Shown: positions 10,436-56,121 of the stretch, piece after piece
Numbering within the stretch: position 1 is the first letter of the stretch
Layout: the number at the start of each line of letters is the position of its first letter
From: Bolinopsis microptera
Lineage: Eukaryota > Ctenophora > Tentaculata > Lobata > Bolinopsidae
Reading direction: 5' to 3'
DNA length: 64,000 bases
Assembly: GCF_026151205.1 (NCBI RefSeq)
Contig: NC_087084.1
Coordinates: forward strand, 7,985,394-8,049,393
The notes under the pieces: generated by a model
Database searches by the model: none
What the model saw: only the letters and a program-made list of their open reading frames with translations
What the model was told of the DNA's origin: nothing
Position numbers and translations under genes: made by a program

Positions 10436-10475
10436 GGTGACAGTTCGTTTCTCTCCAACTCCGTTCTGCTACCAA

Positions 10476-20967: not shown

Positions 20968-23218
20968 TTAGTGATATCTTACTTCAACAGAATCTTTGAG
21001 TTTATCAAGTAGACTACACATGCGATGATAATCCTCAAGTATCGTACCTTTTTCAGGATACATTATTACTGTGCACTTAACTCGTGCTCGTGACATGGCC
21101 ATATATAAATGTTCTGAATCAAATGACATGGCCATATATAAATGTTCTGAATCAAATGACAACTTTTCAGGCCCTTCAATAAGTGTATCAGCTTCATAAT
21201 CATATAATTGCTGCAGTGTTATAACTGCTGGCCATTCTTGTGAATATGTTGACACCACCCCCCTTGGTGTAATATCTTTTGAAAATAATATCCTTTCCAC
21301 AATGGTTTTAACTAAATTTGTTGTGTCATTTTCACTGAGAGTATAAAGAATACCCACATCATTACCATCTATCATATCATCAAAACATAATTCATGAAAT
21401 TCGTTGTCAAAAATAGAATATATAAGTTCCTCGTTAAACTTTTGCAGAACATGCACGATAGTTTTTGGTCCATGTATGTAGTGCCCGGGGACTTGTAAAA
21501 TTGCGAAATCATTTCTAAATTTTGATACAAGGTTTCCCGGCTCAATGATATGTTCTCGAATTACTGACAATGTTCTCGACAAATCAGAGGTGTTTCTCAA
21601 GTTCTTTGATAAACTTACAGGTTGTGTAGATGATAATTTGTCGTTAAAAAGTGCTGCTAGTCTAGAGGCATGTCCAAACATTTCCTCCTCATCAGCATCA
21701 TAAATAGGGCTTTGTAACGTGTCACATGAGATCCAAACATGACAAGAACATGGCAGTTCTAAAAATGCTCTAAATATCTCATAGATTTTATTGATGTCTT
21801 CTTTTACTCTATTCCACCTGAACAGTCCTTGAATATCGTCGAAAAACACGTGAATTCCTTTTCCTTGAAATAAACGTATTAAGATTATTAACGATGTATT
21901 ATCTATGCCTTCGATATAGTTAGTTTCAGCATTAAAATCCTTAAGCATCATTATGACAACTTGATTGTCATTAAGATAGCCTCTTATTGTACTCCAGAGT
22001 TCATCAGCAGGTTTATCAGCTATTTCTGTTACAAAAATAAAAACGTGCTTAACACCTGCTTTTTCTAACGGCTTATGTAGATGCTCTGGGGATGTCATGA
22101 CTTCATCAGTGTGACACGTTTCACAGAATAAAACAATTATGTTTTCTTCATTTGACAATGCTAGTTGTAGCATCTTAGCTAGTAGTACAACAGTTTTACC
22201 AGCTCCAGCGGGTCCATTGATCCACAAGAACTTCTCATCTGAATTTATCAAATCGTACTGTTGTTTAGTCAAGTTGTCTATTCCTAAAAAGTCCTTGACA
22301 ATCGTGGGTGATGGAATGACGTCAGGGTTATTGCTTCTGAAGGTAAATCTTCCTGAACGCAGTTGCTCGCCGATTTTTACTATATACACTTACCCAAACT
22401 ACATTTGGACTTATCACAAATGGTCTTGTCTGTACACCATATAGCTAATAATAAGTTCCTAACATTTTCATGTTTGGTGCGAAACTCAGGACGCAAAGGC
22501 TCATCCAAGACTAGATCACTTACATTGTCTTTCCACCAATCACTAAAATCTTCTAAATCTTCTTTGAAAATTATTGACGAAAGTTTATCTCTGCTTATCG
22601 GAAATTCTTTCTTGAATGCTCTTTCAAAGTTGGGGTAATATATGGTAAACTGGAGAACTGTTAACCGTTTACAAAATCTCTTAACAAATTGTACCATCTT
22701 GTTCCTCTGGTCCAATGATTTCTGGAAAGTTTTGGCCAACGCTTGCGACTGTTGATTATTGTTACACCCAGGGTCTGATTGATTCCTGATATGACCCATA
22801 TTCTTCACTTCAATAATTACAAAGCAGTTTGGTGCTATAACTACAAAGTCGCACTCGCCTTCTCGGTTAGTTGCTCTCTTCTTACACTCTGTACATTTTC
22901 GTTTAACATGGGTTAAATCTCCCAGATAATATTGGAAATGAGTATATTCAAAACTATGAAGAACAATAAAATCTCCTCCACTCAGTTTCTCTAAAGCTCT
23001 GTATACAATAACCTCAGCCTCATAGTTGAGTTGCTGGTTTCTGTCATTTTCAAAACTACATCCGGGCTTATCTTCAGGGTAAAGGTCTACATACTTTTGT
23101 TGAGGAGCTCTAGGTAACATGATGGGATCTTTGTCTCCATGCCAGTTGAACAGTATGTTTCAAATATCTCATTTCCATTCCGCAGATATTTCTCGTACTG
23201 TGTTTCTTTCTTGGTCAT
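20968..23218 (-). pseudogene. NERD-helicase array copy A (frameshifted)
   Basis: This is the distal copy of the array, about 735 codons if read through its breaks. The nuclease half is in 22380-23120 and the helicase half in 20968-22389. Two frameshifts break it: a 5-bp insertion near 23141 just after the start region, and a 2-bp insertion (TATATA for TATA) near 22381 between the nuclease and helicase halves. A 33-bp tandem duplication (21092-21157) repeats SFDSEHLYMAM next to helicase motif VI. Nuclease residues (ECDFVVI, IIEVK) and Walker A (GPAGAGKT) remain. The N-terminal half is closest to copy C and the middle (ETNYIEGIDNTSLIILI) to copy D. The two halves could still produce separate polypeptides, but a pseudogene is likelier. 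Confidence 0.85.
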
Positions 23219-26109: not shown

Positions 26110-28314
26110 TTAATGATATCTTACTTCAACAGAATCTTTGAGTTTATCAAGTAGACTACACATGCGATGATAATCATCAAGTATAGTACCTTTCAAATTA
26201 GGAAACATTATTACTGTGCACTTAACTCGTGCTCGTGACATGGCAAGATATAAAAGTTCTGAAGCGACAGATAAAAGTGTCTCAGTTTCACTTGAATTAA
26301 ATAACTGTTGCAAAAATATAACTGCTGCAGGCAATTCTTTTGAATATGTTGACAGCACAAACCATGGTGTAACATCGCGATCGTTTGAAAATAATATCCC
26401 ATCCACAATGGTTTTAACTAAATTGTCTTTGCCATTACCCTCAAGATTGTAAAGAATACCCACATCATTACTATCTATCATATCATCAAAACATAATTCT
26501 TTAAATTCCTTGTCAAAAATAGAATATATAAGTTCCTCGTTATACTTTTGCAGAACATGCACGACAGTTTTTGGTCCATGTATGTAGTGCCCGGGGGCTT
26601 GTAAAATGGCGAAATCCTTTCTAAATGTTGAAACTATGTTTCCCGGCTCAATGATATGTTCTCGAATGACTGACAATGTTCTCGCCAAATCAGAGGTGTT
26701 TCTCAAGTTCTTTGATAGACTTACAAGCTGTGTAGATGATAATTCGTAGTTAAAAAGTCTGGTTAGTCTACAGTCATTTCCGAACCTTTCCTCCTCATCA
26801 GTGATATAAAGAGGACTTTGTAACGTGTCACATGAGATCCAAACGAGACAAGAACATGACAGTTCGAACAATGTTTTGAGTAATTCATAGTATTTATTTG
26901 TGCCTTCTTTTACATTATCCCAACTGAACGTTCCTTGAATATCGTCGAAAAACAAGTGAATTCCTCTTCCTTAAAATAAACGTATAAAGTACGTTAGCGA
27001 TGGATTATTGATATTGTTGATACCCCCAGTTTTAGCATTTGAATCGCTGACCATTATTATGACAACTTGATTGTCATGAAGATAGTCTCTTGTTCTACAA
27101 TAGACTTCATCAGCAGTGTTATAGAATATTTCTCTACCAAAAATAAAAATGTGCTTAACACCTGCTTTTTCTAGCGGTTTATGTAGATGCTCTGGGGATA
27201 TCATGGCGTCACCAATGTTACACGTTTCACAGAATAACACAATTTTGTTGTCTTCACTTGACAATGCTAGTTGTAGTATCTTAGCTAGTAGTACAACAGT
27301 TTTACCAGCTCCAGCGGGTCCATTGATCCACAAGAACTTCTCATTTGAATGTATCAAATCGAACTGTTGTTTAGTCAAGTTGTCTATTCCTAAAAAGTCC
27401 TTGACAATTGTGGGTGATGGAGTAACTTGAGGGTTATTGATTCTGAAGGTAAATTTTCCTGAACGCAGTTGTTTGTTGATATTCACTACACGCTTACCCA
27501 AACTACATTTGGACTTATCACAAATGGTCTTGTCTGTACACCATATAGCTAATAATAAGTTCCTAACATCTTCATGTTTGGTGCGAAACTCAGGATGTAA
27601 AGGCTCATCCAAGACTAGATCACTTACATTGTCTGTCCACCAATCACTAAAATCGTCCAAATCTTCTTTGAAAATTATTGATGAAAGTTGATCCCTGCTT
27701 AGCGGAAATTCTTTCTTGAATGCTTTTTGAAAGTTGGGGTAAACGGTAAACTGGAGTACTGTTAACCGTTTACAAAATCTCTTAATAAATTGTAGCATCT
27801 TGTTCCTCTGGTCCAGTGATTTCTGGAAAGTTTTGCACAACGCTTGCGACTGTTGATTTTTGTTACACCCAGGGTCTGATTGATTCCCGATATGACCCAT
27901 ATTCTTCACTTCAATAATTACAAAGTAGTTTGGTGAAATCACTACAAAGTCGCACTCGCCCTCCCTGTTAGTTGCTCTCTGCTTACACTCTGTACATTTT
28001 CGTTTAACATGGGTTAAATTTCCCAGATAATATTGGAAATGAGTATATTCAAAACTATGAAGAACAATAAAATCTCCTTCACTCAGTTTCTCTAAAGCTC
28101 TGTATACAATAACCTCAGCCTCGTAGTTGAGTTGCTGGTTTCTGTCGTTTTCAAAACTACATCCGGGCTGATCTTCAGGGTAAAGGTCTACATACTTTTG
28201 TTGAGGAGCTCTGGGTAACATGATGGGATGTTTGTCTCCAGTTGAACAGTAGGTTTCAAATATATCATTTCCATTCCGCAGGTATTTCTCGTACTGTGTT
28301 TCTTTCTTGGTCAT
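26110..28314 (-). pseudogene. NERD-helicase array copy B (single nonsense mutation)
   Basis: Otherwise full length, this copy is cut by one stop: the Gln codon of the conserved IRLFQGKG block just before Walker B is TAA instead of CAA, at about 26956-26958. The nuclease half (26959-28314) and the helicase C-terminal half (26110-26955) are each intact. Two conservative changes follow the stop (QGKG to stop-GRG, HVFFDD to HLFFDD). The last cysteine of the CSLGKC cluster is Arg. It is closest to copy F (VNINxQLRSGKFTFRI, HVLQKYNEELIYSIFDKEFK). The start is the ATG shared by all copies (MTKKETQYEKYL). A TATA box lies 145 bp upstream. Confidence 0.88.
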
Positions 28315-28456
28315 AGCAATCTTCACTGTAGTGCAAATGTTTTGTACTTTAGTATAAATTAACCTTGTCAGCTAAAGAAATATAAAACAATACCGAGGTT
28401 CTGACGCTAGGAGTTATCACCCATCAAGTATCAGTACTTGGGGTTTTAGCGGAACT

Positions 28457-28946: not shown

Positions 28947-30828
28947 AATTAAAGACACGTACAAATAAAGACAAATGTTGAAATACCTTAAGTAACATAA
29001 TATATCTTAATAACTACGACTAAGTTATCACTAACTTTGCAACGTAAGATAATCAAATAACACGAAGAAATAAACCTCACGAAACACAGAGAGCACAAAG
29101 AGAAATGACAGAAAAGTTACACTCGCTAATTATAACACGGTCCATCTCCCGGTATTACATAATTCACATTCCAGAACAACAACACACAACAGAACTACTC
29201 TTCTTAGATCATGGTACTTGAAATTTGAATTTATGTGTGTGATGTGTATGCTCGTAAGTCGTGAGTGTGCGTGCACGAAACTAAGCCGAAACGTTTCACA
29301 GAACCTTCCATGTAATCCAATAATAACGGTCATAACGCAAGGTATAATATCTTGCTAATAATTCAAAACTAACGGGGCTCAACCAAAGGAATATAACTAC
29401 AGTATAGTTATACATGTTATAGGACCAACATTCAAGTGTCCATTAAAGAAGGCCACAGAGAGAGGGGGGGGGGGGGGGGCGAGGTCAATTTTGACATTTT
29501 GGGATATGTTGTAGAGCTTGGCATAAATTTTCTAATGCTTTTGTTCTTATCGAAAAAGAAGAAGTTTCCGTTTCTAAAATTAAGGTTTACATTTAATTTT
29601 ATTGTAAATGAAAACTTCGAATGAAATTTTGTTTGAAAGATCTTCTTTTACAGTTGTAAAGTTAAGACCTTGTTACTTAGGTCACGTGTTCTTCAAGTCT
29701 TGTAGAGATGAAAATGATAATATAGATAGCAGGAACCCGTATAATATAACCCTAAACGGTGTCAAGACTCAAGAGACTAAAATGATTATTACCTATTTAA
29801 TTGGCGTTTTTGACACCACTTGCGGGTCCAAATTTTGGGCTCTAAAATCATTATTCCTTGGCCAATTTTTTATTTGTTCATGCTGATTTGTAGGCCATTA
29901 AAGTATTTGACCCAGTCAAAAAAGTTTCAGTTGTATATCTTTTACGGTTTTTGCAGAAAGTCACGTTAAAGTTGATGCCGTGGTGTCAGTAAAATGGCAC
30001 AGATATATATATATATATATATATCGTCTCGCTTTATATATAGTAAGATAACAGATATGTGGGCGTGGGATGACCGATTGACTGCTATAGAAAATCTTGA
30101 CTTTAGATTTGAGCAACAAAATATTAAGAATCTGTAATTTACGAGCTTAAAAGGTTAATTGATTAAAGGGTCAACTGTTAACGTCAATTTCACAACAAAC
30201 TAGGCGCTCTGGTGAGCTAGGCGTTGAGGGTAGGCGCCGGGTAGGACAAAGCCTGCCTACTGACAAAAATATTTATTGTTCTCGAACCCCCCCTCCCCCT
30301 CATAATGGGAGATGAACAACAACACTACTCTTCTTAGATCATGGTATTGCAGTGCTCGTGTATGATCTCTGGACGGTTTGATATTTCCGGTTGATTTCCG
30401 GCAGCTTTTACACCGGACCAGGGCTGAAACCGGATTTAGCCGGATATTTAATTTTAGATGTTGTAAAGTGATAATTATAAAGCAGTTGGTACACATAATA
30501 ACTTATTAAAACAGTTATAATGCAATTTTTACACATAATAATAATTTTGTTAAACTAACAAGGTCACTACTACATAATACAACTGGTTGACAAAGTTTTA
30601 AAATTAATTTGATAGAATCGTCTAAAATATCATGCTTATATAAAATCACATACATTTACTATTATTAGAATTATCATCAATTACAAACAAATATAAAGCA
30701 GTACAACTTCAGGCTGTACACTTTTCAAATTTATCATGACGTGATGATGTTTATTCACAAAATATTTGGATTATGAATTATAAATTAATCTGGTTCAGTT
30801 AATAAATTGTATTTTAAAGTTTGAAGTG
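28947..30828. other. Array spacer between copies B and C
   Basis: The 5'-flank block of copy B is at 29035-29220. A G run lies near 29465. The right half (GGGCGTGGGATGACC, then ACAAACTAGGCGCTCTGG and GCCGGGTAGGACAAAGCC) is shared with the spacer at about 38800-39010. A short (AT)n tract lies at 30004-30024. The poly(A) signal of copy C (AATAAA on minus) is at 30750-30755. No gene is recognised. Confidence 0.5.
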
Positions 30829-33081
30829 TTAATGACATCTTACTTCAGCAAAATCTTTGAGCTTATTAAGTAGACTTTTCATGCGATGATAATCCTCACG
30901 TATATTACCTTTTTCAGGAAACATAATTACTGTGCACTTACCTCTTGCTCGTGACATGGCAAGATATAAATGTTCTGTATCGATTGAAAACTCTTTACTT
31001 TTATTTTGAAAATCAAGTGTATGATCAACTAACATCTGCAATGCTATAACTGCAGGCCATTCTTGTGAATATGTCGATAACACCATCCTTGGTGTAATAT
31101 CTTTTGAAAATAATATCCCATCCACAATGGCTTTAACTAAATTTCCTGTTTCCTTATTACAAAGAGTATAAAGAATACCTACATCATTATCATCTATCAT
31201 ATCATCAAAACATAATTCATTAAATTCTTTGTCAAAAATAGAATATATAAGTTTCTCATTAAACTTCTGCAGAACATGTACGATAATTTTTGGTCCATGT
31301 ATGTAGTGTCCATGGGTTTGTATAATTGCGAAATCATTTCTAAACGTTGATACAATGTGTCCCGGCTCAATGATATGTTCTCGAATGACTGACAATATTA
31401 TCGACAAATCAGAGGTATTTCTCAAGTTCTTTGAAAGACTTACAAGCTGTGTAGATGATAATTCGTCGCTAAAAAGTCTTGCTAGTCTAGAGTCATGTCC
31501 GAACTTACCTTCCTCATCAGATATATAAATATGACTTTGTAACGTGTCACATGAGATCCAAACGTGACAAGAACATGACAGTTCTAACAATGCTTTAAAT
31601 GTCTCATAGTCTTTAATTTCGTTCGCTATGTCCCACCTGAACGTTCCTTGAATATCGTCAAAAAACACGTGAATTCCTTTTCCTTGAAATAAGCGTATAA
31701 AGGATATTAGCGGCTCATTATCCATACTTTTGATCCTCCCTGTTTTAGCATCACACGCACTTAGATTTATTATGACAACCTGATTGTCATTAAGATAGTC
31801 TCTTATTCTACGATAGAATTCATAACCAGGTTCATCAATCATTTCTCTATCGAGGGTATATAGATAGCTTTCAGAGAAGGGTTTGTTCCACATTAATTCT
31901 GTAGCAACAGCAAAAACGTGCTTAACACCTGCTTTTTCTAGCGGCTTATGTAGATGCTCTGGGGATGTCATGACTTCATCAGTGTCACAAATTTCACAGA
32001 ATAGCACTATTTTGTTGTCCTCACTTGACAATGCTAGTTGTAGTATCTTGGCTAGTAGTACAACAGTTTTACCGGCTCCAGCGGGTCCATTGATCCACAA
32101 GAACTTCTCATTTGAATTTATCACGTCGTACTGTTGTTTAGTCAAGTTGTCTATTCCTAAAAAGTCCTTGACTATCTTGGGTGATGGAATGACTTCAGGG
32201 TTATTGCTCCTGAAGGTAAATCTTCCTGAACGCAGTTGCTCGCCAATTTTTACTATACACTTACCCAAACTACATTTGGACTTATCACAAATGGTCTTGT
32301 CTGTACACCATATAGCTAATAATAAGTTCCTAACATCTTCATGTTTGGTGCGAAACTCAGGACGCAAAGGCTCATCCAAGACTAGATCACTTACATTGTC
32401 TTTCCACCAATCACTAAAATCTTCTAAATCTTCTTTGAAAATTATTGACGAAAGTTTATCTCTGCTTATCGGAAATTCTTTCTTGAATGCTCTTTCAAAG
32501 TTGGGGTAAATGGTAAACTGGAGAACTGTTAACCGTTTACAAAATCTCTTAACAAATTGTACCATCTTGTTCCTCTGGTCCAATGATTTCTGGAAAGTTT
32601 TGGCCAACGCTTGCGAATGTTGATTATTGTTACACCCAGGGTCTGATTGATTCCTGATATGACCCATATTCTTCACTTCAATAATTACAAAGCAATTTGG
32701 TGCTATCACTACAAAGTCGCACTCGCCTTCTCGGTTAGTTGCTCTCTTCTTACACTCTGTACATTTTCGTTTAACATGGGTTAAATCTCCCAGATAATAT
32801 TGGAAATGAGTATATTCAAAACTATGAAGAACAATATAATCTCCACCACTCAGTTTCTCCAAAGCTCTGTATACAATAACCTCAGCCTCGTAGTTGAGTT
32901 GCTGATTTCTGTCGTTTTCAAAACTACATCCGGGCTGATCTCCAGGGTAAAGGTCTACATACTTTTGTTGAGGAGCTCTGGGTAACATGATGGGATGTTT
33001 GGCTCCAGTTGAACAGTAGGTTTTAAATATCTCATTTCCATTCTGCAGGTATTTCTCGTACTGTGTTTCATTCCTGGTCAT
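30829..33081 (-). CDS. NERD-helicase array copy C, intact nuclease-helicase protein
   Basis: An intronless frame of 750 aa from the ATG shared by all copies (33081); an in-frame ATG at 33105 would add 8 residues. The nuclease domain (about residues 60-190) has NYEAEVIVYRALEKL, the acid in GECDFVVI and the IIEVK pair, as in NERD and other PD-(D/E)XK nucleases. A CTEC pair and a four-cysteine cluster (CTDKTICDKSKCSLGKC) could bind metal. The helicase part has Walker A GPAGAGKT, Walker B FFDDIQ, a CDTLQS motif III, LSKNLRN and LAMSRARGK (motif VI). Unique to this copy is an extra loop (LYTLDREMIDEPG) between Walker A and B. The likely role is a nuclease-helicase acting on foreign or damaged nucleic acid; this is inference from domains. 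Confidence 0.9.
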   Translation of the reverse strand: MTRNETQYEKYLQNGNEIFKTYCSTGAKHPIMLPRAPQQKYVDLYPGDQPGCSFENDRNQQLNYEAEVIVYRALEKLSGGDYIVLHSFEYTHFQYYLGDLTHVKRKCTECKKRATNREGECDFVVIAPNCFVIIEVKNMGHIRNQSDPGCNNNQHSQALAKTFQKSLDQRNKMVQFVKRFCKRLTVLQFTIYPNFERAFKKEFPISRDKLSSIIFKEDLEDFSDWWKDNVSDLVLDEPLRPEFRTKHEDVRNLLLAIWCTDKTICDKSKCSLGKCIVKIGEQLRSGRFTFRSNNPEVIPSPKIVKDFLGIDNLTKQQYDVINSNEKFLWINGPAGAGKTVVLLAKILQLALSSEDNKIVLFCEICDTDEVMTSPEHLHKPLEKAGVKHVFAVATELMWNKPFSESYLYTLDREMIDEPGYEFYRRIRDYLNDNQVVIINLSACDAKTGRIKSMDNEPLISFIRLFQGKGIHVFFDDIQGTFRWDIANEIKDYETFKALLELSCSCHVWISCDTLQSHIYISDEEGKFGHDSRLARLFSDELSSTQLVSLSKNLRNTSDLSIILSVIREHIIEPGHIVSTFRNDFAIIQTHGHYIHGPKIIVHVLQKFNEKLIYSIFDKEFNELCFDDMIDDNDVGILYTLCNKETGNLVKAIVDGILFSKDITPRMVLSTYSQEWPAVIALQMLVDHTLDFQNKSKEFSIDTEHLYLAMSRARGKCTVIMFPEKGNIREDYHRMKSLLNKLKDFAEVRCH

Positions 33082-34720: not shown

Positions 34721-34898
34721 TTCCAGAACAACAAGAGAACTACTCTTCTAAGATCATGGTATTGCAGTGCTCGTGAATTATCTCTGGACGGTTTGAAATT
34801 TCCGATGAAATACCGATGTTTAATCACAAGATATTTAAATCCCTAATTAATTAATTAATTTGGTTCAGTTAATACATTTTATTTTAAAGTTTGAAGTG

Positions 34899-37111
34899 TT
34901 AATGATATCTTACTTCAACAGAATCTTTGAGCTTATCAAGTAGACTACTCATGCGATGATAATCCTCAAGAATATCACCTTCTACAGGAAACATTATTAT
35001 TGTGCACTTAACTCGTGCTCGTGACATGGCAAGATATAAAAGGTCTGGATCAAATGAAAACGGTCGCGGTCCAGACACTTCAATCTGTGTCTTAGCTTCA
35101 CAATCATATAACCGTTGCAAAACTATAACTGCAGGCCATTCTTGTGAATATGTTGACATCACCCTCCTTGGTGTAATATCTTTTGATAATAAAATCCCAT
35201 CCACAATGGTTTTAACTAAATTGTCTGTGCCATTATCAGGATCACAGAGAGTATAAAGAATACCCACATTATTACCATCTATCATATAATCAAAACATAA
35301 TTCATTAAATTCTTTGTCAAAAATAGAATATATAAGTTCCTTGTTTAACTTTTGCAGAACATGCACGATAGATTTTGGTCCATGTATGTAGTGCCCGGGG
35401 GCTTGTAAAATGGCGAAATCCTTTGTAAATGGTAATACAAGGTTTCCCGGCTCAATGATATGTTCTCGAATTACTGACAATGTTCTTGACAAATCACTGG
35501 TGTTTCTTAAATTCTTTGATAGACTTACACGCTGTGTAGATGATAATTAAGAAATCTAGTTAGTCTAGAGTCATGTCTTAACCTTTCCTCCTCATCAGCA
35601 ATATAAATAGGGCTTTGTAACGTGTCACATGAGATCCAAACGTGACAAGAACATGACAGTTCGAACAATGCTTTATATACATCATACTCCTTAATCATTT
35701 TTCCTTTTACTTTATCCCACCTTAACACTCCTTGAATATCGTCGAAAAACACGTGAACTCCTTTTCCTTGAAATAAACGTATTAAGATTATTAGCGATGT
35801 ATTATCGATGCCTTTGATATAGTTAGTTTCAGTATTAAAATCCTTAAGCATCATTATGACAACTTGTTTGTCCTTAAGATAGCCTCTTATTTTACGCCAG
35901 ATTTCATGAGCAGGTTTACCAATCATTTCTTCAAAACAAATAGAAACGTGCTTAACACCTGCTTTTTCTAGCGGCTTATGTAGATACTCTGGGGATATCA
36001 TGTTTTCATCAATAACACACGTTTCACAGAATAACACAATTTTGTTATCTTCACTTGACAATGCTAGTTGTAGTATCTTAGCTAGTAGTACAACAGTTTT
36101 ACTAGCTCCAGCGGGTCCATTGATCCACAAGAACTTCTCATCGGAATTTATCAAGTCGTACTGTTGTTCAGTCAAGTTGTCTATTCCTAAAAAGTCCTTG
36201 ACGATCTTGGGTGATGGAATAACGTCAGGGTTATTGCTCCTGAAGGTAAATCTTCCTAAACGCAGTTGCTCGCCGATTTTTACTATACACTTACCCAAAC
36301 TACATTTGGACTTATCGCAAATGGTCGTATCTGTACACGATATAGCTAATAATAAGTTCCGAACATGTTCATGTTTGGTACGAAACTCAGGACGCAAAGG
36401 CTCATCCAAGACTAGATAACTTACATTGTCTTTCCACCAATCACTGAAATCGTCTAAATCTTCTTTGACAATGATTGATGAAAGTTGACCCCTGCTGAGC
36501 GGAAATTCTTTCTTGAATGCTTTTTCAAAGTTGGGGTAAACAGTAAACTGGAGAACTGTTAACCGTTTACAAAATCTCTTAACAAATTGTGCCATCTTGT
36601 TCCTCTGGTCCAGTGATTTCTGGAACGTTTTGGCCAATGTTTGTGACTGTTGATCTTTGTTACACCCAGGGTCTGATTGATTCCCGATATGACCCATATT
36701 CTTCACTTCAATAATTACAAAGCAGTTTGGTGTTATCACTACAAAATCGCACTCGCCTTCTCGGTTAGTTGCTCTCTTCTTACACTCTGTACATTTTCGT
36801 TTAACATGGGTTAAATCTCTCAGATAATATTGGAAATGAGTATATTCAAAACTATGAAGAACAATATAATCTCCACCACTCAGTTTCTCTAAAGCTCTGT
36901 ATACAATTACCTCAGCCTCATAGTTGAGTTGCTGGTTTCTATCATTTTCAAAACTACATCCGGGCTGATCTTCAGGGTAAAGGTCTACATACTTTTGTTG
37001 AGGAGCTCTGGGTAACATGATGGGATGTTTGTCTCCAGTTGAACAGTAGGTTTCAAATATCTCACTCCCATTCCGCAGGTATTTCTCATACTGTGTTTCC
37101 TTCTTGGTCAT
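34899..37111 (-). pseudogene. NERD-helicase array copy D (deletion frameshift, altered Walker A)
   Basis: The nuclease half and most of the helicase (35525-37111) are open, then a deletion of several bases near 35545 (DDELSSTQ region) shifts the frame. The remaining C-terminus is in 34899-35492. Walker A reads GPAGASKT, with Ser in place of the invariant glycine before Lys-Thr, which should harm nucleotide binding even without the frameshift. The middle is closest to copy A (ETNYIKGIDNTSLIILI) and the C-terminal part to copy G (CDPDN...VMSTYSQEWPAVIVLQRLYD). It is a probable pseudogene. Confidence 0.87.
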
Positions 37112-39497: not shown

Positions 39498-41696
39498 TTA
39501 GTGATATCTTACTTCAACAGAATCTTTAAGCTTATCCAGTAGATTACACATGCGATGATAATCCTCAGGTATCATACCTTCTAAAGGAAACATTATTACT
39601 GTGCACTTAACTCGTGCTCGTGACATGGCCATATATAAAAATTCTGAACTACACCAAACCTTTGCTGACCCTTCAATAAATGCTTCACGATCAAATTTCA
39701 ATTGAAATACTATAACTGCAGACCATTCTTGTGAATATGTTGACAACAGCTGCCTTGGTGTAATATCTTTTGATGATAATATCCCATCCGTAATAGATTT
39801 AATTAAATTCAGTGTGTATGAATCCTGAGAAGTGTAAATAATACCCACATCATTACTATCTATCATATTATCGAAACATAATTCATTAAATTCGTTGACA
39901 AAAATATCATACAGAAGTTTCTCATCAAAATTTTGCAGAACATGAACAATAGATTTTGGTCCATGTATGTAGTGCCCAGGGGCTTGTAAAATTGCGAAAT
40001 CATTTCTAAATGTTGATACAAGGTTTCCCGGCTCAATGATATGTTCTCGAATGATTGACAATGTTCTCGACAAATCAGAGGTGTTTCTCAAGTTCTTAGA
40101 TAGACTTACAAGCTGTGTAGATGATAATTCGTCTTTAACAAATCCGGTCAGTATAGAGTCATGTCTTAACCTTTCCTCCTCATCAGCAATGTAAAGCGGA
40201 TTTTGTAACGTGTCACATGTGATCCAAACGTGACAAGAACATGACAGTTCGAACAATGCTTTAAATATCTTATAGTCTCTATTGATTTTGTCTTTTACCA
40301 TATCCCACCTGAATGCTCCTTGAATATCGTCGAAAAACACGTGAATTTCTTTTCCTTGCAGTAAACGTATAAATTTTATTAGTGATGCATTGCTAAGACC
40401 TTTGATAGTCGTAGGTTTAACATTTAAACCCCTAAGCATTATTATGACAACTTGATTGTCATTAAGATAGCCTCTTATTTTACGCCAGAATTCATCAACA
40501 TGTTTGTAACCAATAATTTCTGTAGAAAAAATAGGAACGTGCTTAACACCTGCTTTTTCTAGCGGCTTATGTAGATGCTCTGGGTATGTCATGGTGCCAT
40601 CAATGACAGACGTTTCACAGAATAACACAATTTTATTGTCTTCACTAGTTGACAATGCTAGTTGTAGTATCTTGGCTAGTAGAACAACAGTTTTACCGGC
40701 TCCAGCGGGTCCATTGATCCACAAGAACTTCTCGTCTGAATTTATTAAATCGTACTGTTGTTTAGTCAAGTTTTCTATCCCTAAAAAGTCCTTGACGATC
40801 TTGGGTGATGGAATGACGTCAGGGTTATTGCTCCTGAAGGTAAATCTTCCTGCACGCAGTTGCTCCCCGATTTTTACTATACACTTGCCCAAACTACATT
40901 TGGACTTATCACAATTGGTCTTGTCTGTGCACCAAATAGCTAATAATAAATTCTTAACATGTTCATGTTTGGTGCCAAACTCAGGATGTAAAGGTTTATC
41001 TAAGACAAGGTCACTTACATTGTCTTTCCACCAATTACTAAAATGTTCCAAATCTTCTTTGAAAATTATTGTTGAAAGTAGATCCCTTCTTAGCTGAAAA
41101 TCTTTCTTGAATGCTTTTTGAAAGTTGGGATAAACGGTAAACTGGAGAACTGTTAATCGTTTACAAAATCTTTTAACAAATTCTACCATCTTGTTCCTCT
41201 GGTTCAGTGATTTCTGGAACGTTTCGCCCAATGCTTGCGACTGTTTATCTTTGTTACACCCAGGGTCTGATTGATTCCCGATATGACTAATATTCTTCAC
41301 TTCAATAATTACAAAGCAGTTTGGTGCTATCACTACAAAGTCGCACTCGCCTTCTCGGTTAGTTGCTCTCTTCTTACACTCAGTACATTTTCGTTTAACA
41401 TGGGTTAAATCTCCCAGATAATATTGGAAATGAGTATATTCAAAACCATGAAGAACAATAAAGTCGCCACCAATTAGTTTCTCTAAAGCTCTGTATACAA
41501 TAACCTCAGCCTCGTAGTTGAGTTGCTGGTTTCTGTCGTCTTCAAAACTACATCCGGCAGGGTAAAGGTCTACATACTTTTGTTTAGGAGCTCTGGGTAA
41601 CATGATGGGATGTTTGTCTCCAGTTGAACTGTAAGTTTTAAATATCTCATTTCCATTCCGCAGATATTTCTCGTACTGTGTTTCCTTCTTGGTCAT
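39498..41696 (-). CDS. NERD-helicase array copy E, intact nuclease-helicase protein
   Basis: 732 aa from the shared ATG (41696); an ATG two codons upstream (41702) is also possible. All nuclease residues (EAEVIVYRALEKL, GECDFVVI, IIEVK) and helicase motifs (GPAGAGKT, FFDDIQ, CDTLQN, LSKNLRN, LAMSRARVK-like MAMSRARVK) are present. It is the most divergent intact copy: four residues (EDQP) are missing near residue 47, and HFSNWWKDN replaces DFSDWWKDN. Both variable loops differ strongly from the others (VPIFSTEIIGYKHVDEFW and FDREAFIEGSAKVWCSSEF). The TATA position upstream has been lost. The mariner-like MITE at 42011 sits about 315 bp upstream of the start and may separate the gene from its ancestral 5' flank. 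Confidence 0.9.
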   Translation of the reverse strand: MTKKETQYEKYLRNGNEIFKTYSSTGDKHPIMLPRAPKQKYVDLYPAGCSFEDDRNQQLNYEAEVIVYRALEKLIGGDFIVLHGFEYTHFQYYLGDLTHVKRKCTECKKRATNREGECDFVVIAPNCFVIIEVKNISHIGNQSDPGCNKDKQSQALGETFQKSLNQRNKMVEFVKRFCKRLTVLQFTVYPNFQKAFKKDFQLRRDLLSTIIFKEDLEHFSNWWKDNVSDLVLDKPLHPEFGTKHEHVKNLLLAIWCTDKTNCDKSKCSLGKCIVKIGEQLRAGRFTFRSNNPDVIPSPKIVKDFLGIENLTKQQYDLINSDEKFLWINGPAGAGKTVVLLAKILQLALSTSEDNKIVLFCETSVIDGTMTYPEHLHKPLEKAGVKHVPIFSTEIIGYKHVDEFWRKIRGYLNDNQVVIIMLRGLNVKPTTIKGLSNASLIKFIRLLQGKEIHVFFDDIQGAFRWDMVKDKINRDYKIFKALFELSCSCHVWITCDTLQNPLYIADEEERLRHDSILTGFVKDELSSTQLVSLSKNLRNTSDLSRTLSIIREHIIEPGNLVSTFRNDFAILQAPGHYIHGPKSIVHVLQNFDEKLLYDIFVNEFNELCFDNMIDSNDVGIIYTSQDSYTLNLIKSITDGILSSKDITPRQLLSTYSQEWSAVIVFQLKFDREAFIEGSAKVWCSSEFLYMAMSRARVKCTVIMFPLEGMIPEDYHRMCNLLDKLKDSVEVRYH

Positions 41697-43824: not shown

Positions 43825-43826
43825 TA

Positions 43827-46532: not shown

Positions 46533-46833
46533 ACATAGTCTTTACATCTTTTTCGAACTATAAACCAAAACGGTATGTTTGGCATTGAAATGTCTGCATG
46601 CTCCTCTAGGTAGTGCTTCCCCATGGCCGTAGATTTGTTGCCATCCCTTACTGATTTGTAGTGTTCCCAGGCTCTACTTCTTTTAAACCTACAGGTTTCC
46701 CCAATGTAGGACTTATTACATATTTGGCATATTAATTGGTAGCAAATGTTTTTGATCATGCAGGATTTATCGCACTGGAAGCATTTGCTGTCACTTTGTT
46801 TATTGCATTTTGTTTGCTGTAGGCTAGATCTAC
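46529..46833 (-). pseudogene. Penelope GIY-YIG endonuclease domain, left copy
   Basis: The minus strand encodes MIKNICYQLICQICNKSYIG followed by ETCRFKRSRAWEHYKSV and HADISMPNIPFWFIVRKRC. ICQICNKSYIGET...R..R..EH is the signature of the Penelope GIY-YIG endonuclease, which nicks the target and primes reverse transcription. The domain is cut by the LINE insertion after KDYV and lacks the reverse transcriptase, so the copy is dead. Confidence 0.85.
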
Positions 46834-46835
46834 CT

Positions 46836-47374
46836 TATATAAATGAACAGACGTGTCGAAAAGTCTACTATACCCTAAGAAATCAAAACCTCTTGGATTC
46901 CACCAGGGTAACATTCACATCAGGAAAACGTCTCATGGAAGCTTTAACAAGATCTAGCCTACAGCAAACAAAATGCAATAAACAAAGTGACAGCAAATGC
47001 TACCAGTGCGATAAATCCTGCATGATCAAAAACATTTGCTACCAATTAATATGCCAAATATGTAATAAGTCCTACATTGGGGAAACTGGTAGGTTTAAAA
47101 GAAGTAGAGCCTGGGAACACTACAAATCAGTAAGGGATGGCAACAAATCTACGGCCATGGGGAAGCACTACCTAGAGCTCTAGAGGAGCATGCAGACATT
47201 TCAATGCCAAACATACCGTTTCGGTTTATAGTTCGAAAAAGATGTAAAGACTATGTGGACCGTCAATTGTGGCAGTCGGTTCTAATAAAACGTGAAAACC
47301 CAGAAATAAATACTCAATTGTCTGAGTCCGTAAATGAAGGTGATTGGATAAAATATACTTGGAAGTTAATGTAA
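46836..47374 (+). pseudogene. Penelope C-terminal fragment with GIY-YIG endonuclease, right copy
   Basis: Plus-strand sequence includes LPYINEQTCRKVYYTLRN, then TSGKRLMEALTRSSLQQTKC, a CYQCDKSC pair and ICQICNKSYIGETGRFKRSR, ending KYTWKLM at 47374. This is the linker and GIY-YIG part of Penelope-like proteins. A small insertion after GKHYLE (CTAGAGCTCTAGAGG) introduces a stop and frameshift near 47183. The reverse transcriptase is absent. Confidence 0.85.
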
Positions 47375-48004
47375 TATTGAACTTATAAACCTAGATTATT
47401 TTTGATTAATCAGTTTTATGAAGGAGCTATCTTGGTAAAATGTTTGTAGTACTATGAGGAATTGTTCACGGTTTGTTGCGGTGTGGATTCTTTTAGCCAT
47501 TATATTTTATGTTTCTTTTGGATAAATTTGTGATTGTTGTTGTGTTTCAAGATGTTATTTTTTTGTTGTTATATTTCGTAGTATTAATAGATTATTTTAA
47601 CATTGTATCTTTGCAGCTATGTAAGTTTTCAGTACGTCCTGTTTATGACAAAGGCATGTAGCCGAAACGTCGACAAAGAATTATGTTTTAACACACTGAG
47701 TGGAGACTCTCATTTCGTCAACTACAATAAAAAAAAAAAAAAAACACCTTGAAATAGATGTCAATAAACGACGAGCAAAATTTCAACCCGATACCGCAAG
47801 AAATGATTAACTTATAGCGTCTCAACCACAAAATAATTTTGTCCGAAAATTGCACTCTCAACCAGAAAATGCTCGATTACAAAAATAGGTATTCTCAAAA
47901 TAATTTTTTTGTGTGGAAACGGTGCGCTAGTAGGTCACTGAACTGCCTATGAGGTCATTTGGTCTGGACGGCACAAACCACTGTTTTGGTGTATGCCCAC
48001 TTAA

Positions 48005-48378: not shown

Positions 48379-48384
48379 TTATAA

Positions 48385-48557: not shown

Positions 48558-48563
48558 TTATAA

Positions 48564-49309: not shown

Positions 49310-49579
49310 TTATAAAGCAGTTGGTACACATAATAACTTACTAAAACAGTTATAATGCAATTTTTACATATATATGATAAATATTCTGTTAAATTGACAA
49401 GGTCACTGCAACTGTGTCCCGGCTCAATTATATCATCAACTACAAGCGAAGATACAGTAGTACAACATCAGGCTTTATACTTTTCAAATTATACCGATGT
49501 TTATTTACAAGATATTTAAATCCTTAAATAATAAAGTAATCTGGTTCAGTTAATTAATTGTATTTTAAAGTTTGAAGTG

Positions 49580-51778
49580 TTAATGATATCTTACTTCAAC
49601 AGAATCTTTAAGTTTATCAAGTAGACTACACATGCGATGATAATCCTCAAGTATTGCACCTTTTACAGGAAACATTATTACTGTGCACTTAACTCGTGCT
49701 CGTGATATGGCAAGGTATAAAAGTTCTGAATCAAATGAAACATTTTGAACAGACACTCCAGTCAGTATCTCAGCTTTATAATCAAATAACTGTTGCAGTG
49801 CTACAACTGCAGGCCATTCTTTTGAATATGTTGACGTCACCTTCCTTGGTGTAATATTTTTTGAAGATAATATCCCATCCACAATGGTTTTACTTAAATT
49901 ATCTGTGTTATTATCCCAAAGATTGTAAAGAATACCCACATCATTACCATCTATCATACCATCAAAACATAATTCTTTAAATTCCTTGTCAAAAATAGAA
50001 TATATAAGTTCCTCGTTATACTTTTGCAGAACATGCACGACAGTTTTTGGTCCGTGTATGTAGTGCCCGGGGGTTTGTAAAATGTCGAAATCGTTTGTAA
50101 ATGTTGATACAAGGTTTTCCGATTCAATAATATGTTCTCGAATGACTGACAATGCTCTCGACAAATCAGAGGTGTTTCTTAAGTTCTTTGATAGACTTAC
50201 AAGCTGTGTAGATGACAATTCGTCGTTAAAAAGTTTGGCTAGTCTAGAGTCATGTCTTAACCTTTCCTCCTCATCAGCAATATAAAGAGGACTTTGTAAC
50301 GTGTCACATGAGATCCAAACGTGACAAGAACATGACAGTTCTAATAATACTTTAAATATATCATAGTTTTTATTGATGTCTTTTTTTACTTCATCCCACC
50401 TGAACACTCCTTGAATATCGTCGAAAAACACGTGAATTCCTTTTCCTTGAAATAAACGTATTAAGTATATTAGCGATATGTTATTGATATGTTCGATATC
50501 CTCAGTTGTACCATTTAAACTCTGAAGCATTATTATGACAACTTGATAGCCTTTTATTTTACGCCAGATCTCATCAGCAGAAATACCAACCATTTCTGTA
50601 CGACAAATAGAAACGTGCTTAACACCTGCTTTCTCAAGCGGCTTATGTAAATGCTCTGGGGATGTCATGTTTCCATCAATAACATACGTTTCACAGAATA
50701 ACACAATTTTGTTGTCTTCACTTGACAATGCTAGTTGTAGTATCTTAGCTAGTAGTACAACAGTTTTACCGGCTCCAGCGGGTCCATTGATCCACAAGAA
50801 CTTCTCATTTGAATTAATCAAATCGTACTGTTGTTTAGTCAAGTTGTCGATTCCTAAAAAGTCCTTGATGATCTTGGGTGATGGAATAACTTGAGGGTTA
50901 ATGATTCTGAAGGTGAATTTTCCTGAACGCAGTTGTTCGTTTATGTTCACTATACACTTTCCCAAACTACACTTGGACTTATCACAAATGGTCGTATCTG
51001 TACACCATATAGCTAATAATAAGTTCCTGACATCTTCATGTTTGGTGCGAAACTCAGGATGCAAAGGCTCATCCAAGATTAGATCACTTACATTGTTGTT
51101 CCACCAATCACTAAAATCTGCCAAATCTTCTTTGAAAATTATTGACGAAAGTTTATCCCTGCTTATCAGAAATTCTTTCTTGAATGCTTTTTCAAAGTTG
51201 GGGTAAACGGTAAATTGGAGAACTGTTAACCGTTTACAAAATCTTTTAACAAATTGTACCATCTTGTTCCTCTGGTCCAGTGATTTCTGGAACGTTTTGG
51301 CCAATGCTTGCGATTGTTGATCTTTGTTACACCCAGGGTCTGATTGATTTCCGATATGACCCATATTCTTCACTTCAATAATTACAAAGCAGTTTGGTGT
51401 TATCACTACAAAATCGCACTCGCCTTCTCTGTTAGTTGCTGTCTTTTTGCACGTTTTACAGTTTCGTTTATCATGGGTTAAATCTCCCAGATAATATTGG
51501 AAATGAGTATATTCAAAACCATGAAGAACAATAAAATCTCCTCCAATCAGTTTTTCTAAAGCTCTGTATACAATAACCTCAGCCTCATAGTTGAGTTGCT
51601 GGTTTCTGTCGTTTTCAAAACTACATCCGGGCTGATCTTCAGGGTAAAGGTCTACATACTTTTGCTGAGGAGCTCTGGGTAACATGATGGGATGTTTGTC
51701 TCCAGTTGAACAGTAGGTTTCAAATATCTCACTCCCATTCCGCAGGTATTTCTCGTACTGTGTTTCCTTCTTGGTCAT
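49580..51778 (-). CDS. NERD-helicase array copy F, intact nuclease-helicase protein
   Basis: 732 aa in one exon from the shared ATG. By residue: E65/E67 in NYEAEVIVYRALEKL; CKTC 107-110; the nuclease acid D122 in GECDFVVI; E135 and K137 in IIEVK; cysteine cluster 259-275; Walker A GPAGAGKT 332-339; variable loop about 365-445; Walker B FFDDIQ 451-456; CDTLQSPLY 491-499; LSKNLRN 529-535; second variable loop about 660-685; motif VI LAISRAR 689-695. The layout is that of NERD-type nuclease plus UvrD-like SF1 helicase. There is no signal peptide or membrane segment, so it is cytosolic or nuclear. The TATA box is 145 bp upstream, and the poly(A) signal about 75 bp past the stop (49500-49505). The helix between nuclease and helicase is unassigned. 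A Schlafen-like role is possible but not shown. Confidence 0.92.
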   Translation of the reverse strand: MTKKETQYEKYLRNGSEIFETYCSTGDKHPIMLPRAPQQKYVDLYPEDQPGCSFENDRNQQLNYEAEVIVYRALEKLIGGDFIVLHGFEYTHFQYYLGDLTHDKRNCKTCKKTATNREGECDFVVITPNCFVIIEVKNMGHIGNQSDPGCNKDQQSQALAKTFQKSLDQRNKMVQFVKRFCKRLTVLQFTVYPNFEKAFKKEFLISRDKLSSIIFKEDLADFSDWWNNNVSDLILDEPLHPEFRTKHEDVRNLLLAIWCTDTTICDKSKCSLGKCIVNINEQLRSGKFTFRIINPQVIPSPKIIKDFLGIDNLTKQQYDLINSNEKFLWINGPAGAGKTVVLLAKILQLALSSEDNKIVLFCETYVIDGNMTSPEHLHKPLEKAGVKHVSICRTEMVGISADEIWRKIKGYQVVIIMLQSLNGTTEDIEHINNISLIYLIRLFQGKGIHVFFDDIQGVFRWDEVKKDINKNYDIFKVLLELSCSCHVWISCDTLQSPLYIADEEERLRHDSRLAKLFNDELSSTQLVSLSKNLRNTSDLSRALSVIREHIIESENLVSTFTNDFDILQTPGHYIHGPKTVVHVLQKYNEELIYSIFDKEFKELCFDGMIDGNDVGILYNLWDNNTDNLSKTIVDGILSSKNITPRKVTSTYSKEWPAVVALQQLFDYKAEILTGVSVQNVSFDSELLYLAISRARVKCTVIMFPVKGAILEDYHRMCSLLDKLKDSVEVRYH

Positions 51779-53913
51779 AGCAATCTTCACTGTAGTGCAA
51801 ATGTTAAGTACTTTAGTCTTAATTAACCTTGTCAGCTAATCAAATGTAAAATAATACCGGGGCCCTAACGCTAGAAGCTATCGCCCATCAAGTATCAGTA
51901 CTTAGGGTTTTAGCGAAACTATTTTTATAAAGATACAACCTGGTAGTGAGAGGACTCCCGGATTTTGCCACTTGCTAATTCTGTCACTTTCTTAGTAGAA
52001 AAGCAGTGGTCATTACTTATTGCTTGATTGAGGTGAAAACCAGCCCCCCTTAATTACAGGTACAGAAAGTGGAATGTAACATGCAGAGTGATAAAGACAC
52101 GTACAAATGAAGACAAATGTTGAAATACCTTAATTAACTTAGATCTTAATAACTACAACAAAGTTATCACTAACTTAACAACGTAAGATAATCAAGTAAC
52201 ACGAAGAAATATACCTCACGAAACACAGAGAGCACAAAGAGAAATGACAGAAAAGTTACACTCACTTATTATAACACGGCTCATATTCCGGTATTACATA
52301 ATTCACATTCCAGAACAACAGAACTACTCTTCTTAGATCATGGTACTGGAATGTGCGTGTGGTGTGTACGTTCGTGAGTCGCGACTTCAAGCTAACGAGA
52401 TTTTACGGCAAACAAGCGCTCTGGTTGGCTAGGGGTAGCGTGCAATGTGCATGCGCCATGTAAGATATGGCCTGTTAACTGGGAAAAATTATTTTTGTCC
52501 TCGGACCCCCCCCCCCCCCCCCCACTTTCATAATGTAATAATTTAATTAGTTTAGTACGGATGTTATAGTGATTTGTTTAAGTACTATTACCAATTTATC
52601 TCGATTTATGTGGAACCGACTGGTCTGGGGTTTGGGCAACCGGACCGGAAAGTGCCGGATATCAATCTCTTTTTCGGTTAAACGGATCTTAACTCTAGAA
52701 ACTGAATTGAGAGTAAATCTTTTTATGTAGAATTAAAGGTGCTAAGAGACATAGAAAGACACATACAAATGAAGACAACTTCAACAGCATCTGATTAACT
52801 ACGACTAAGTTATCACTAACTTTGCAACGTAAGATAATCAAATAACACGAAGAAATAAACCTCACGAAACACAGAGAGCACAAAGAGAAATGACAGAAAA
52901 GGTACACTCACTAATTGTTACACGGCTCATCTCCGGCCGGTATTACATAATTCACATTCCAGAACAACAAGAGAACTACTCTTCTTATATCATGGTACTT
53001 GAAATTTGAATTTGTGTGTGTGTGACGTGTATGCTCGTTAGTCAAGTGTGTGCGTCATGTGTGTGCGTGCAAGAAACTAAGCCGAAACGTTTCACAGAAC
53101 CTTCCATGTAATCCAATAATAACGGTCATAACACAAGGCATAATATCTTGCTAATAATTCAAAACGAACGGGGCTCAACCAAAGGAATATAACAACAATA
53201 TAATTATACATGTTATAGGACCAACATTTAAGTGTCCATTAAAAAATTAAGGCCACAGAGAGAGGGGGGAGGTCAATTTTGACATTTTGGGACATGTTGT
53301 AGAGCTCGGCACAAATTTTTTAATGCTTTTGTTCTTATCGAAAGAGAAGTAGTTTCCGTTTCCGTTTCATGTTATTTTATTGTAAATGAAAACTTTAAAT
53401 GAATGCACTCTAACAAAAATATTTATTGTTCTTGGACCCCCCACCCCCCCCCCCCCCCTTCATAATGGGAGATGAAAAACAGCAAAACTATTCTTATTAG
53501 ATCATGGTATTGCAGTGCTCGTGTATTATCTCTGGACGGTTTGAAATTTCCGGTTGATTTCCGGCAGCTTTTAAACCGGACCAGGGCTGAAACCGGATTT
53601 AGACGGATATTTAATTTTAGATGTTGTAAAGTGATAATTATAAAGCAGTTGTTACACGTTATAATAACTTGATAAAACAGTTATAATGCAATTTTCACAT
53701 ATTATATATGATAAATATTTTGTTAAACTGACAAGGTCACTGCAACTGTGTCCCGTCTCAATCATATCATCAACTACAAGCGAAGATAATGTAGTACAAC
53801 ATTAGGCCTTATACTTTTCAAATTTTACCGATGTTTATTCACAAGATATTTAAATCCCTAATTAATAAAGTAATCTGGTTCAGTTAATAAATTGTATTTT
53901 AAAGTTTGAAGTA
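51779..53913. other. Array spacer between copies F and G
   Basis: It holds the copy F promoter region and two array 5'-flank blocks (about 52190-52350 and 52830-52990). A C run lies near 52507-52523 and another near 53439-53459, and the GGACGGTTTGAAATTTCCGG block near 53535. No independent gene is recognised. Confidence 0.5.
51921..51929 (-). promoter_or_regulatory. TATA box of copy F (TATAAAAAT)
   Basis: CTTTATAAAAATAG on the minus strand, 145 bp upstream of the copy F ATG; sequence and spacing match copy B. Confidence 0.6.
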
Positions 53914-56121
53914 TTAGTGATATCTTACTTCAGCAGAATCTTTGAGTTTATCAAGTAGACTACACATGCAATGATAATCCTCAAATTTCGTACCTTCATC
54001 AAAAAACATTATTACTGTGCACTTAACTCGTGCTCGTGACATGGCAAGGTATAAAAGTTCTGAATCAAATGAAACATTCTCAGTCCCTCCAGTCAGTGTA
54101 TCAAGTTTATAATCATACAACCGTTGCAAAACTATAACTGCAGGCCATTCTTTTGAATATGTTGACATCACCCTCCTTGGTGTAATATCTTTTGAAAATA
54201 ATATCCCATCCACAAATGTTTTGACTAAATTTTCTATGTTACTATCAGGATCACAGAGAGTATAAAGAAATCCCACATCATTACCATCTATCATATAATC
54301 AAAACATAATTCATTAAATTCTTTGTCAAAAATAGAATATATAAGTTCCTCGTTAAACTTTTGCAGAACATGCACGATAGATTTTGGTCCATGTATGTAG
54401 TGCCCGGGGGCTTGCAAAATGGCTAAATCATTTTTATATATTGATACTATGTGTCCCGGCTCAATGATATGTTCTCGAATTGCTGACAATGTTTTCGACA
54501 AATCAGAGGTGTTTCTCAAGTTCTTTGATAGACTTACAAGCTGTGTAGATGACAATTTGTCGTTAAAAAGTTCTGCTAGTTTAGAGTCATTTCCGAACAT
54601 TTCCTCCTCATCAGCCTTGTAACTGGGGCTTTGTAACGTGTCACATGAGATGCAAACATGCAGACAAGAACATGACAGTTCTAACAATGCGTTTAATATC
54701 TCATAGTCTTTATTTGTGCTGTCTTTTGGCATATCCCACCTAAACACTCCTTGAATATCGTCGAAAAACACGTGAATTCCTTTTCCTTGAAATAAACGTA
54801 TTAAGGTTATTAGCCACGCATTGCCAAGACATTCGATATGCGTAGTTTCAGTTTTAAAATCCCTAATCATTATTATGACAACTTGATTGTCATTAAGATA
54901 GCTTTTTATTTTACGCCAGAGTTCATCAATAGGTTCTGTATCAGAATAAATAGGAACGTGCTTAACACCTGCTTTTTCTAGCGGCTTTTGTAGATGCTCT
55001 GGGGATGTCATGGCGTCACCAATGTTACACGTTTCACATAATAGTACAATTTTGTTGTCCTCATTTGACAGTGCTAGTTGTAGCATCTTGGCTAGTAGTA
55101 CAACAGTTTTACCAGCTCCAGCGGGTCCATTGATCCACAAAAACTTCTCGTCTGAATTTATCAAATCTTACTGTTGTTTAGTCAAGTTGTCTATTCCTAA
55201 AAAGTCCTTGACAATCGTGGGTGATGGAATGACGTCAGGGTTATTGCTCCTGAAGGTAAATATTCCTGAACGCAGTTGTTCGCCGATTTTAACTATACAC
55301 TTACCCAAACTACATTTGGACTTCGTACAAATGGTCTTATCTGTACACCATATAGCTAATAATAAGTTCCTAACATGTTCATGCTTGGTGCGAAACTCAG
55401 GATGTAAAGGCTCATCCAATGTTAGATCACTTACATTGTCTTTCCACCAATCACTAAAATCTTCCAAATCTTCTTTGAAAATTATTGACGAAAGTTTATC
55501 CCTGCTTAGCGGAAATTCTTTCTTGAATACTTTTTCAAAGTTGGGGTAAACGGTAAACTGGAGAACTGTTAACCGTTTACAAAATCTTTTAACAAATTGT
55601 ACCATCTTGTTCCTCTGGTCCAGTGATTTCTGGAAAGTTTTGCCCAATGCTTGCGACTGTTGATTATTGTTACACACAGGGTCTGATTGATTCCCGATAT
55701 GACCCATATTCTTCACTTCAATAATTACAAAGCAGTTTGGTGTTATCACTACAAAATCGCACTCGCCTTCTCGGTTAGTTGCTCTCTTCTTACACTCTGT
55801 ACATTTTCGTTTAACATGGGTTAAATCTTCCAGATAATATTGGAAATGAGTATATTCAAAACTATGAAGAACAATAAAATCTCCCCCACTCAGTTTCTCT
55901 AAAGCTCTGTATACAATAACCTCAGCCTCGTAGTTGAGTTGCTGGTTTCTATCATTTTGAAAACTACATCCGGGCTGATCTTCAGGGTAAAGGTCTACAT
56001 ACTTTTGTTGAGGAGCTCTGGGTAACATGATGGGATGTTTGTCTTTAGTTGAACAGTAGGTTTCAAATATATCATTTCCATTCTGCAGGTATTTCTCGTA
56101 CTGTGTTTCATTTCTGGTCAT
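53914..56121 (-). pseudogene. NERD-helicase array copy G (single nonsense mutation)
   Basis: This is the copy nearest the 5' end of the array on its strand. One codon in the conserved LTKQQYDLINS block before Walker A is TAA instead of TAC (55165-55167); both sides are otherwise open (55168-56121 and 53914-55164). All catalytic motifs remain. Its upstream sequence departs from the other copies just before the ATG (CTGCAGCGAAGATTACTATG against CTACAGTGAAGATTGCTATG), which marks the edge of the duplicated unit or a splice acceptor. A CACGTG/CCAAT module lies about 225 bp upstream. Confidence 0.88.

Follow-up and report, generated by a model that had tools for sequence, protein, structure and literature searches.

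The window analysed here, a stretch of 64,000 nucleotides (contig NC_087084.1, positions 7,985,394 to 8,049,393 of the forward strand), carries a tandem array of genes, each coding for a NERD nuclease domain fused to a superfamily 1 (SF1) helicase-like half. These are real, partly intact, fast-changing eukaryotic genes of bacterial defence-type architecture. A preliminary description made from the sequence alone had counted seven copies on the same strand, three of them intact. Comparison of the three intact proteins with the window (tblastn), together with the open reading frames (ORFs), confirmed the seven copies, designated A to G, all on the minus strand within 20968-56151; an eighth, inverted match had been overlooked, and is probably an artefact (see below). 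The division into intact and broken members also holds. Copies C (30829..33081), E (39498..41696) and F (49580..51778, the reference copy) are open from a common methionine and code for 750, 732 and 732 amino acids (aa). Copy A (20968..23218) is broken by two frameshifting indels that spread its tblastn matches over three frames, copy B (26110..28314) by one in-frame stop at codon 463, copy D (34899..37111) by a 7-bp deletion and copy G (53914..56121) by one in-frame stop at codon 337, both stops in F numbering. Residues of copy F are numbered in the stop-to-stop frame, in which the methionine is residue 20. Aligned gene pieces of A to G are 86.4-90.8% identical (21 pairs), and the few indels between them are mostly multiples of three.

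The window is eukaryotic, judging from its guanine plus cytosine (GC) content, 32-46% throughout, and from an ORF of the long interspersed nuclear element (LINE) type at 6337-9414 (+). This ORF, of 1025 residues, has endonuclease and reverse transcriptase domains in Pfam (outside the array, the Pfam scan covered this one ORF); being open, it may belong to a young element, and elements of this kind suggest that the host is an animal. Bacterial contamination of the assembly is the alternative that the search results bring to mind: the relatives found were all bacterial or phage, prokaryotic and viral collections being those in which relatives were sought. The nearby LINE, the GC content, the long intergenic spaces and the polyadenylation-type signals described below make it extremely improbable.

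The nuclease and helicase halves

NERD (PF08378) passes the Pfam cut-off of 22.1 bits in all three intact copies, with 33.8, 33.0 and 38.6 bits and E-values of 1.7e-9 to 9.1e-8. In copy F the domain spans residues 83-200 (51236..51589, minus strand; E 5.3e-8) and includes D141, E154 and K156, the last two set as E-x-K. These three residues are present in 7/7 copies, and they are invariant when the array is aligned with eight bacterial NERD regions. We take them to be the catalytic residues of a PD-(D/E)XK fold. Structure prediction contributed less. A first model, built from the three copies, had a predicted local distance difference test score (pLDDT) of 31.7; it was useless and was discarded. 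A second, with five bacterial proteins added, reached pLDDT 48 and a predicted template modelling score (pTM) of 0.39. It lends weak support, placing in the NERD region a helix (55-77), three strands (83-89, 120-127 and 130-136), a second helix (152-180) and a last strand (185-192), with block-mean pLDDT of 32-60.

The motifs listed in the preliminary description are present. GECDFV and IIEVK in the nuclease half, FFDDIQ, CDTLQ, NLRNT and SRAR in the helicase half are kept in all seven copies, as are a Q motif, LT[KE]QQ, and the RNT triplet; GPAGAGKT is found in six, copy D having GPAGASKT, with SKT in place of GKT. Motifs Q and I of copy F, from LTKQQ to GPAGAGKT, occupy residues 332-358 (50762..50842, minus strand). 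General domain models recognize this half poorly. ResIII passes the Pfam cut-off in one of the three intact proteins (5.5e-5), UvrD-helicase attains only 0.003-0.007, and generic P-loop families such as NPHP3_N give 1e-4 to 3e-4.

Two canonical elements of the motor are missing, a point that the preliminary description had passed over. Motif II (Walker B), DE[AGC]Q, occurs in none of the seven copies, DDIQ being the closest string, whereas 11 of 12 bacterial NERD-UvrD proteins have it; motif V, FxG[LM]E, likewise occurs in 0/7 copies and is matched in 9 of the 12 bacterial proteins. The helicase motifs can be put in register in two ways. We prefer to read FFDDIQ as motif II and CDTLQ as motif III, the spacing having been judged by eye, while MAFFT and hhalign both choose to align FFDDIQ with motif III, motif II then being lost, and this second register remains. 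The canonical DExQ is missing under either. The second structure model does not settle the matter, because its own register follows the alignment. The array proteins have a Walker B aspartate as in SLFN5, for which aspartate is reported as the last Walker B residue, with no ATP hydrolysis observed (PMC8789055). SLFN11 is likewise reported not to hydrolyse ATP by itself, yet to need its Walker B in cells (PMC9482658; PMC11615386). Given this precedent and the degenerate motor, it is a reasonable inference that the helicase half of the seven copies would serve as a sensor gated by ATP and not as a processive motor.

Relatives among bacterial proteins and Schlafens

The best PADLOC family in all three intact copies is RTasNERD-Hel (1.5e-9 to 2.2e-7, over two matched stretches), ahead of Nhi, of GajB and of the NERD plus UvrD model C3a187. 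Compared with plasmids by tblastn, copy C finds two collinear NERD-domain proteins, one from Selenomonas ruminantium (residues 63-381, E 3e-4) and one, weakly, from Thermomicrobium roseum (E 3). Both have NERD plus UvrD-type domains, and PADLOC calls both RTasNERD-Hel, at E 4.8e-66 and 3.5e-63 respectively. The Selenomonas protein used as a query matched one phage scaffold and 29 plasmid records, one of which is its own; in 18 of the plasmid records a single place covers 80% or more of the query; an alignment of the NERD pair matched five genome loci. Seven of the 29 plasmid records were fetched, plus those of Selenomonas and Thermomicrobium. A profile was made of 12 bacterial proteins, omitting L009 (long C-terminal extension), L016 (short, 345 aa) and L017 (on the phage scaffold, with an unclear ORF start). 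It scores copies F, C and E at 54.9, 49.0 and 42.7 bits (the E-values being those for a three-protein database), while 1500 shuffled animal sequences gave 583 reported scores, the best of 5.0 bits. When the animal and bacterial alignments are compared with hhalign, the probability is 99.2, with E 1.6e-19, over 493 columns at 21% identity. Profile scores set against shuffles, and an alignment of this length, show homology beyond the shared P-loop. The suspected kinship with bacterial defence-type NERD-UvrD proteins is thus sustained, and so is the fusion of a NERD nuclease with an SF1 helicase-like core, on which Pfam, PADLOC and the collinear relatives agree.

The array proteins represent, in a eukaryote, a variant form of an architecture known from bacteria (PADLOC RTasNERD-Hel, PDLC03813; Selenomonas WP_014431258.1, Thermomicrobium WP_143714759.1). 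They have in common with it the order of domains, the NERD D and ExK, the Q motif, motif I, motif IV (RNT) and motif VI (SRAR). They differ in being about 160-215 aa longer (732-750 aa in the intact proteins), with insertions in the N-terminal part, in NERD and in the helicase, in lacking DExQ and GLE, and in forming a tandem gene family. Among the genes next to bacterial homologues are those of DUF1998, helicases and the DarT family. Scans with an alignment of the animal copies found no relatives in the genome contigs or viral contigs covered, an alignment of animal and bacterial proteins none in viral contigs (600 stretches examined), query P0001 none in phages, and the bacterial queries none in viral contigs (exactly 600 stretches examined in one scan); in both cases the figure of 600 may be a ceiling. 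The statement that no animal NERD-helicase has been described is in line with searches of an open-access library, none being found there among the matches listed; one of these matches, a Leishmania genome paper, contains the phrase 'nuclease-related domain'. Unannotated animal homologues, or descriptions published elsewhere, may exist. Novelty and origin of the family are provisional.

Other defence systems resemble the array in part. Nhi follows the same single-protein nuclease-helicase logic, and Nhi-like proteins are listed with PF08378 in PMC10952713. Its PADLOC model matches only the P-loop stretch (residues 330-383) in the three intact proteins, with no similarity beyond it in any of them; activation of Nhi is reported to be tied to phage SSB (PMC12904381). 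The array proteins further have in common with Gabija GajB a UvrD-like SF1 core, PADLOC matches being to the P-loop. GajB is not known to have a NERD domain, and has GajA as its partner. Cyanobacterial plasmid matches were rejected as whole-length relatives: of five, the two that were fetched are Mokosh MkoA, of kinase-helicase architecture, which match only around the P-loop and cover 10-15% of the query. Directly after each of these two MkoA genes (L001, 1366-4812; L002, 1402-4872) comes a phospholipase D-like gene. Matches in BFVD are, by title, mostly to assorted viral helicases and replicases.

Group III Schlafens (SLFN5, SLFN11, SLFN14), which are described as antiviral in mammals (PMC9482658; PMC12499436), also join an SF1-like helicase lobe to a nuclease in one chain. 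Their nuclease is the Schlafen RNase core, whereas that of the array is NERD. One may ask whether the array belongs to the Schlafen lineage itself, as a relative of the C-terminal halves (linker and helicase) of group III proteins in which NERD would have replaced the RNase core. NERD and the Schlafen linker appear to overlap structurally in a weak model, and SLFN11 is matched at E 7.6e-15 by a mixed profile and at 7.3e-18 by a bacterial one. In Protein Data Bank (PDB) comparisons, the bacterial profile of L005-L008, L010 and L013 finds SLFN11 about as close as HelD by E-value, and closer than UvrD or Gabija chains by E-values of that same profile. The link in sequence is visible only via bacterial or mixed profiles, however. 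A profile of the animal copies alone finds no SLFN protein, the NERD profile has no sequence match to the Schlafen linker, and PF09848 appears in one of the three intact proteins only, at E 0.083. Nor do the copies carry a SWAVDL-type (SWAxDx) string, and the Schlafen core (AlbA_2 RNase) is absent among Pfam matches at E up to 1 in the three intact proteins. We think it improbable that the array belongs to the Schlafen lineage.

Gene structure, flanks and an inverted near-copy

The coding sequence is a single exon, as the preliminary description had it when it called the genes intronless. The term probably does not hold for the whole gene, whose 5' leader is likely to be spliced. In six of the seven copies (A to F) the ATG is preceded by an acceptor-like TGCACTACAG that stops 12 nt short of it, and repeated elements upstream contain eight donor-like TCGTGAG|GT sites on the minus strand. 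In copy F the putative leader, predicted from this pattern common to copies, covers 51790..52380 (minus strand), with a donor-like TCGTGAG|GT at 52215 and acceptor-like TTTGCACTACAG ending at 51790. Downstream, a polyadenylation-type signal, A[AT]TAAA, lies 74-87 nt past the stop in B to G (6/7), not in A.

Could the genes have been carried or spread by mobile elements, the copies arising by transposition? A LINE lies in the window, as seen above, and repeated intergenic units separate the copies. Yet all seven are on one strand, most have common flanking sequence, six have the polyadenylation-type signal, and no poly(A) tail was seen in the 300 bases examined. We hold this origin to be a slim prospect. 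Formation of the copies as retrocopies, in particular, is thought unlikely because such tails were not seen.

The eighth match is an inverted near-copy of 29753-35010, that is, of copy C with its flanks, at 58723..64000 (plus strand); its gene part, H, extends approximately from 60.5 to 63.0 kb. It differs by 506 substitutions (9.8%) over 5147 aligned bases and by 152 indel events, 105 of them of a single base. Genic and intergenic sequence are affected to a fairly similar degree (8-36 substitutions per 250 columns). Transitions and transversions stand at 166:340, the ratio expected if every change were equally likely; for comparison, the ratio between copies A to G is 0.94-1.43 in 21/21 pairs. 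Of the 283 differences from C that lie in the gene part, 237 occur in the inverted segment and in no other copy, against 64-87 private ones of 214-288 in five control pairs. The segment carries 43 of 56 C-private substitutions, somewhat fewer than pure 10% error predicts. From this pattern the segment is probably copy C with random errors, as in unpolished long reads, and so an assembly artefact, not a paralogue of the usual kind; that the inverted duplication is genuine and has decayed neutrally is a less probable reading, which we keep in mind. H was left out of the selection windows, regions and mosaic table considered below.

Other features of the window deserve a mention. Two inverted repeats, 45322-45807 / 47253-47738 (99.6% over 486 bases) and 44653-44875 / 45061-45283 (98.2%), are recent or artefactual. 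ORFs on both strands at 46140-47374 have a CNKSYIGET-like stretch, presumably the GIY-YIG of Penelope-like elements. Two ORFs at 19653-20519 (minus strand) adjoin copy A and appear, by eye, to be C-terminal remnants of retroelement reverse transcriptases. Just past the LINE there is a direct repeat, 9452-9704 / 10472-10724 (99.2% over 253 bases), and at 3898-4023 a perfect TTAC microsatellite of 31.5 units.

Uneven change along the gene and what it may mean

The ratio of non-synonymous to synonymous substitution (dN/dS), from Nei-Gojobori counts over A to G with bootstrap ranges, is 0.61 for the whole gene, dS being 0.13-0.21 in all regions. It is 0.32 in NERD (0.18-0.56), 0.30 in the linker and 0.15 in motifs Q and I. 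Two segments of the helicase half contrast with these: residues 380-459, in the stretch that separates motif I from FFDDIQ (50459..50698 in copy F, minus strand), at 1.51 (0.99-2.39), and residues 640-720, which surround motif VI and the place of motif V (49676..49918, minus strand), at 1.22 (0.84-1.83). Indels cluster in both. Fast and slow blocks differ with Fisher p-values of 4.3e-10 (seven copies) and 1.2e-7 (C, E and F), which are rough, because the blocks were picked after viewing the dN/dS windows and neither sites nor copies are independent. In the intact genes alone, the values are 0.29 for NERD, 0.27 for the linker, 0.05 for motif I, and 1.24 and 1.25 for the segments, so that constraint and rapid change coexist in C, E and F. 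The closest partner of each copy also shifts along the gene; A and C, for instance, are 99.5% alike over columns 600-1000 of the NERD-linker part (two windows of 200 columns each). Such mosaic copies, with a changing best partner, suggest gene conversion among them.

The best explanation, to which we give about an even chance, is that this tandem family restricts foreign nucleic acid, be it from a virus or a mobile element, in a cell-autonomous way. The C-terminal SF1-like module would bind ATP and, by means of its fast-evolving segments, DNA or RNA that is foreign or aberrant. A change of conformation would follow, perhaps with no processive unwinding given the degenerate Walker B and motif V, and would free the N-terminal NERD domain to introduce metal-dependent nicks or cuts into the nucleic acid thus bound. 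Nuclease activity, substrate, use of ATP, surface position of the fast segments and immune role are all what we infer from the sequence. The innate-immunity role put forward in the preliminary description gains strength, short of proof, from the constrained catalytic parts, the two fast helicase segments and the mosaic copies.

Several points weigh against it. Four of the seven copies are broken. Identity to the bacterial proteins is only about 20%, and the genes around the Selenomonas and Thermomicrobium relatives form mixed sets, not clear defence islands. The helicase half does no better with UvrD in Pfam than with generic P-loop families, the degenerate Walker B and motif V mean that ATPase activity may be lost, and confidence in the structure model is low. 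Finally, the excess of dN/dS over 1 is not significant in either segment (minimal-change test, p 0.25 for both), the bootstrap ranges of both include 1, and relaxed constraint combined with gene conversion could produce the same pattern.

Some of these points are just what a nuclease-helicase for DNA or RNA maintenance, such as repair, would predict, if it had been duplicated in tandem, its extra copies decaying and its helicase lobe under relaxed constraint, with no immune role: broken copies, segments not significantly above 1 in a gene at 0.61 overall, and no canonical motifs II and V. Against this, the intact copies keep NERD and motif I under constraint beside their fast segments, and FFDDIQ, CDTLQ, NLRNT and SRAR stay invariant in 7/7 copies inside the faster half. 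A maintenance role is rather unlikely.

A longer history may be imagined for the restriction family. An animal lineage would have acquired an anti-phage NERD-UvrD enzyme from bacteria and developed it into a tandem set of restriction factors that diversify and undergo gene conversion, its motor becoming an ATP-bound sensor; group III Schlafens would perhaps have descended in parallel from that SF1 branch, their linker a relic of a NERD nuclease. This scenario is speculative, and we think it doubtful. Defence genes common to bacteria and animals include CD-NTases, STING and viperin (PMC10732462). If the array is immune in function, it would add a class of nuclease-helicases to them, and it offers concrete catalytic residues and two variable segments with which to test this. 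The profile link from bacterial NERD-UvrD proteins to human SLFN11, for its part, is a testable route to the origin of the Schlafen helicase half.

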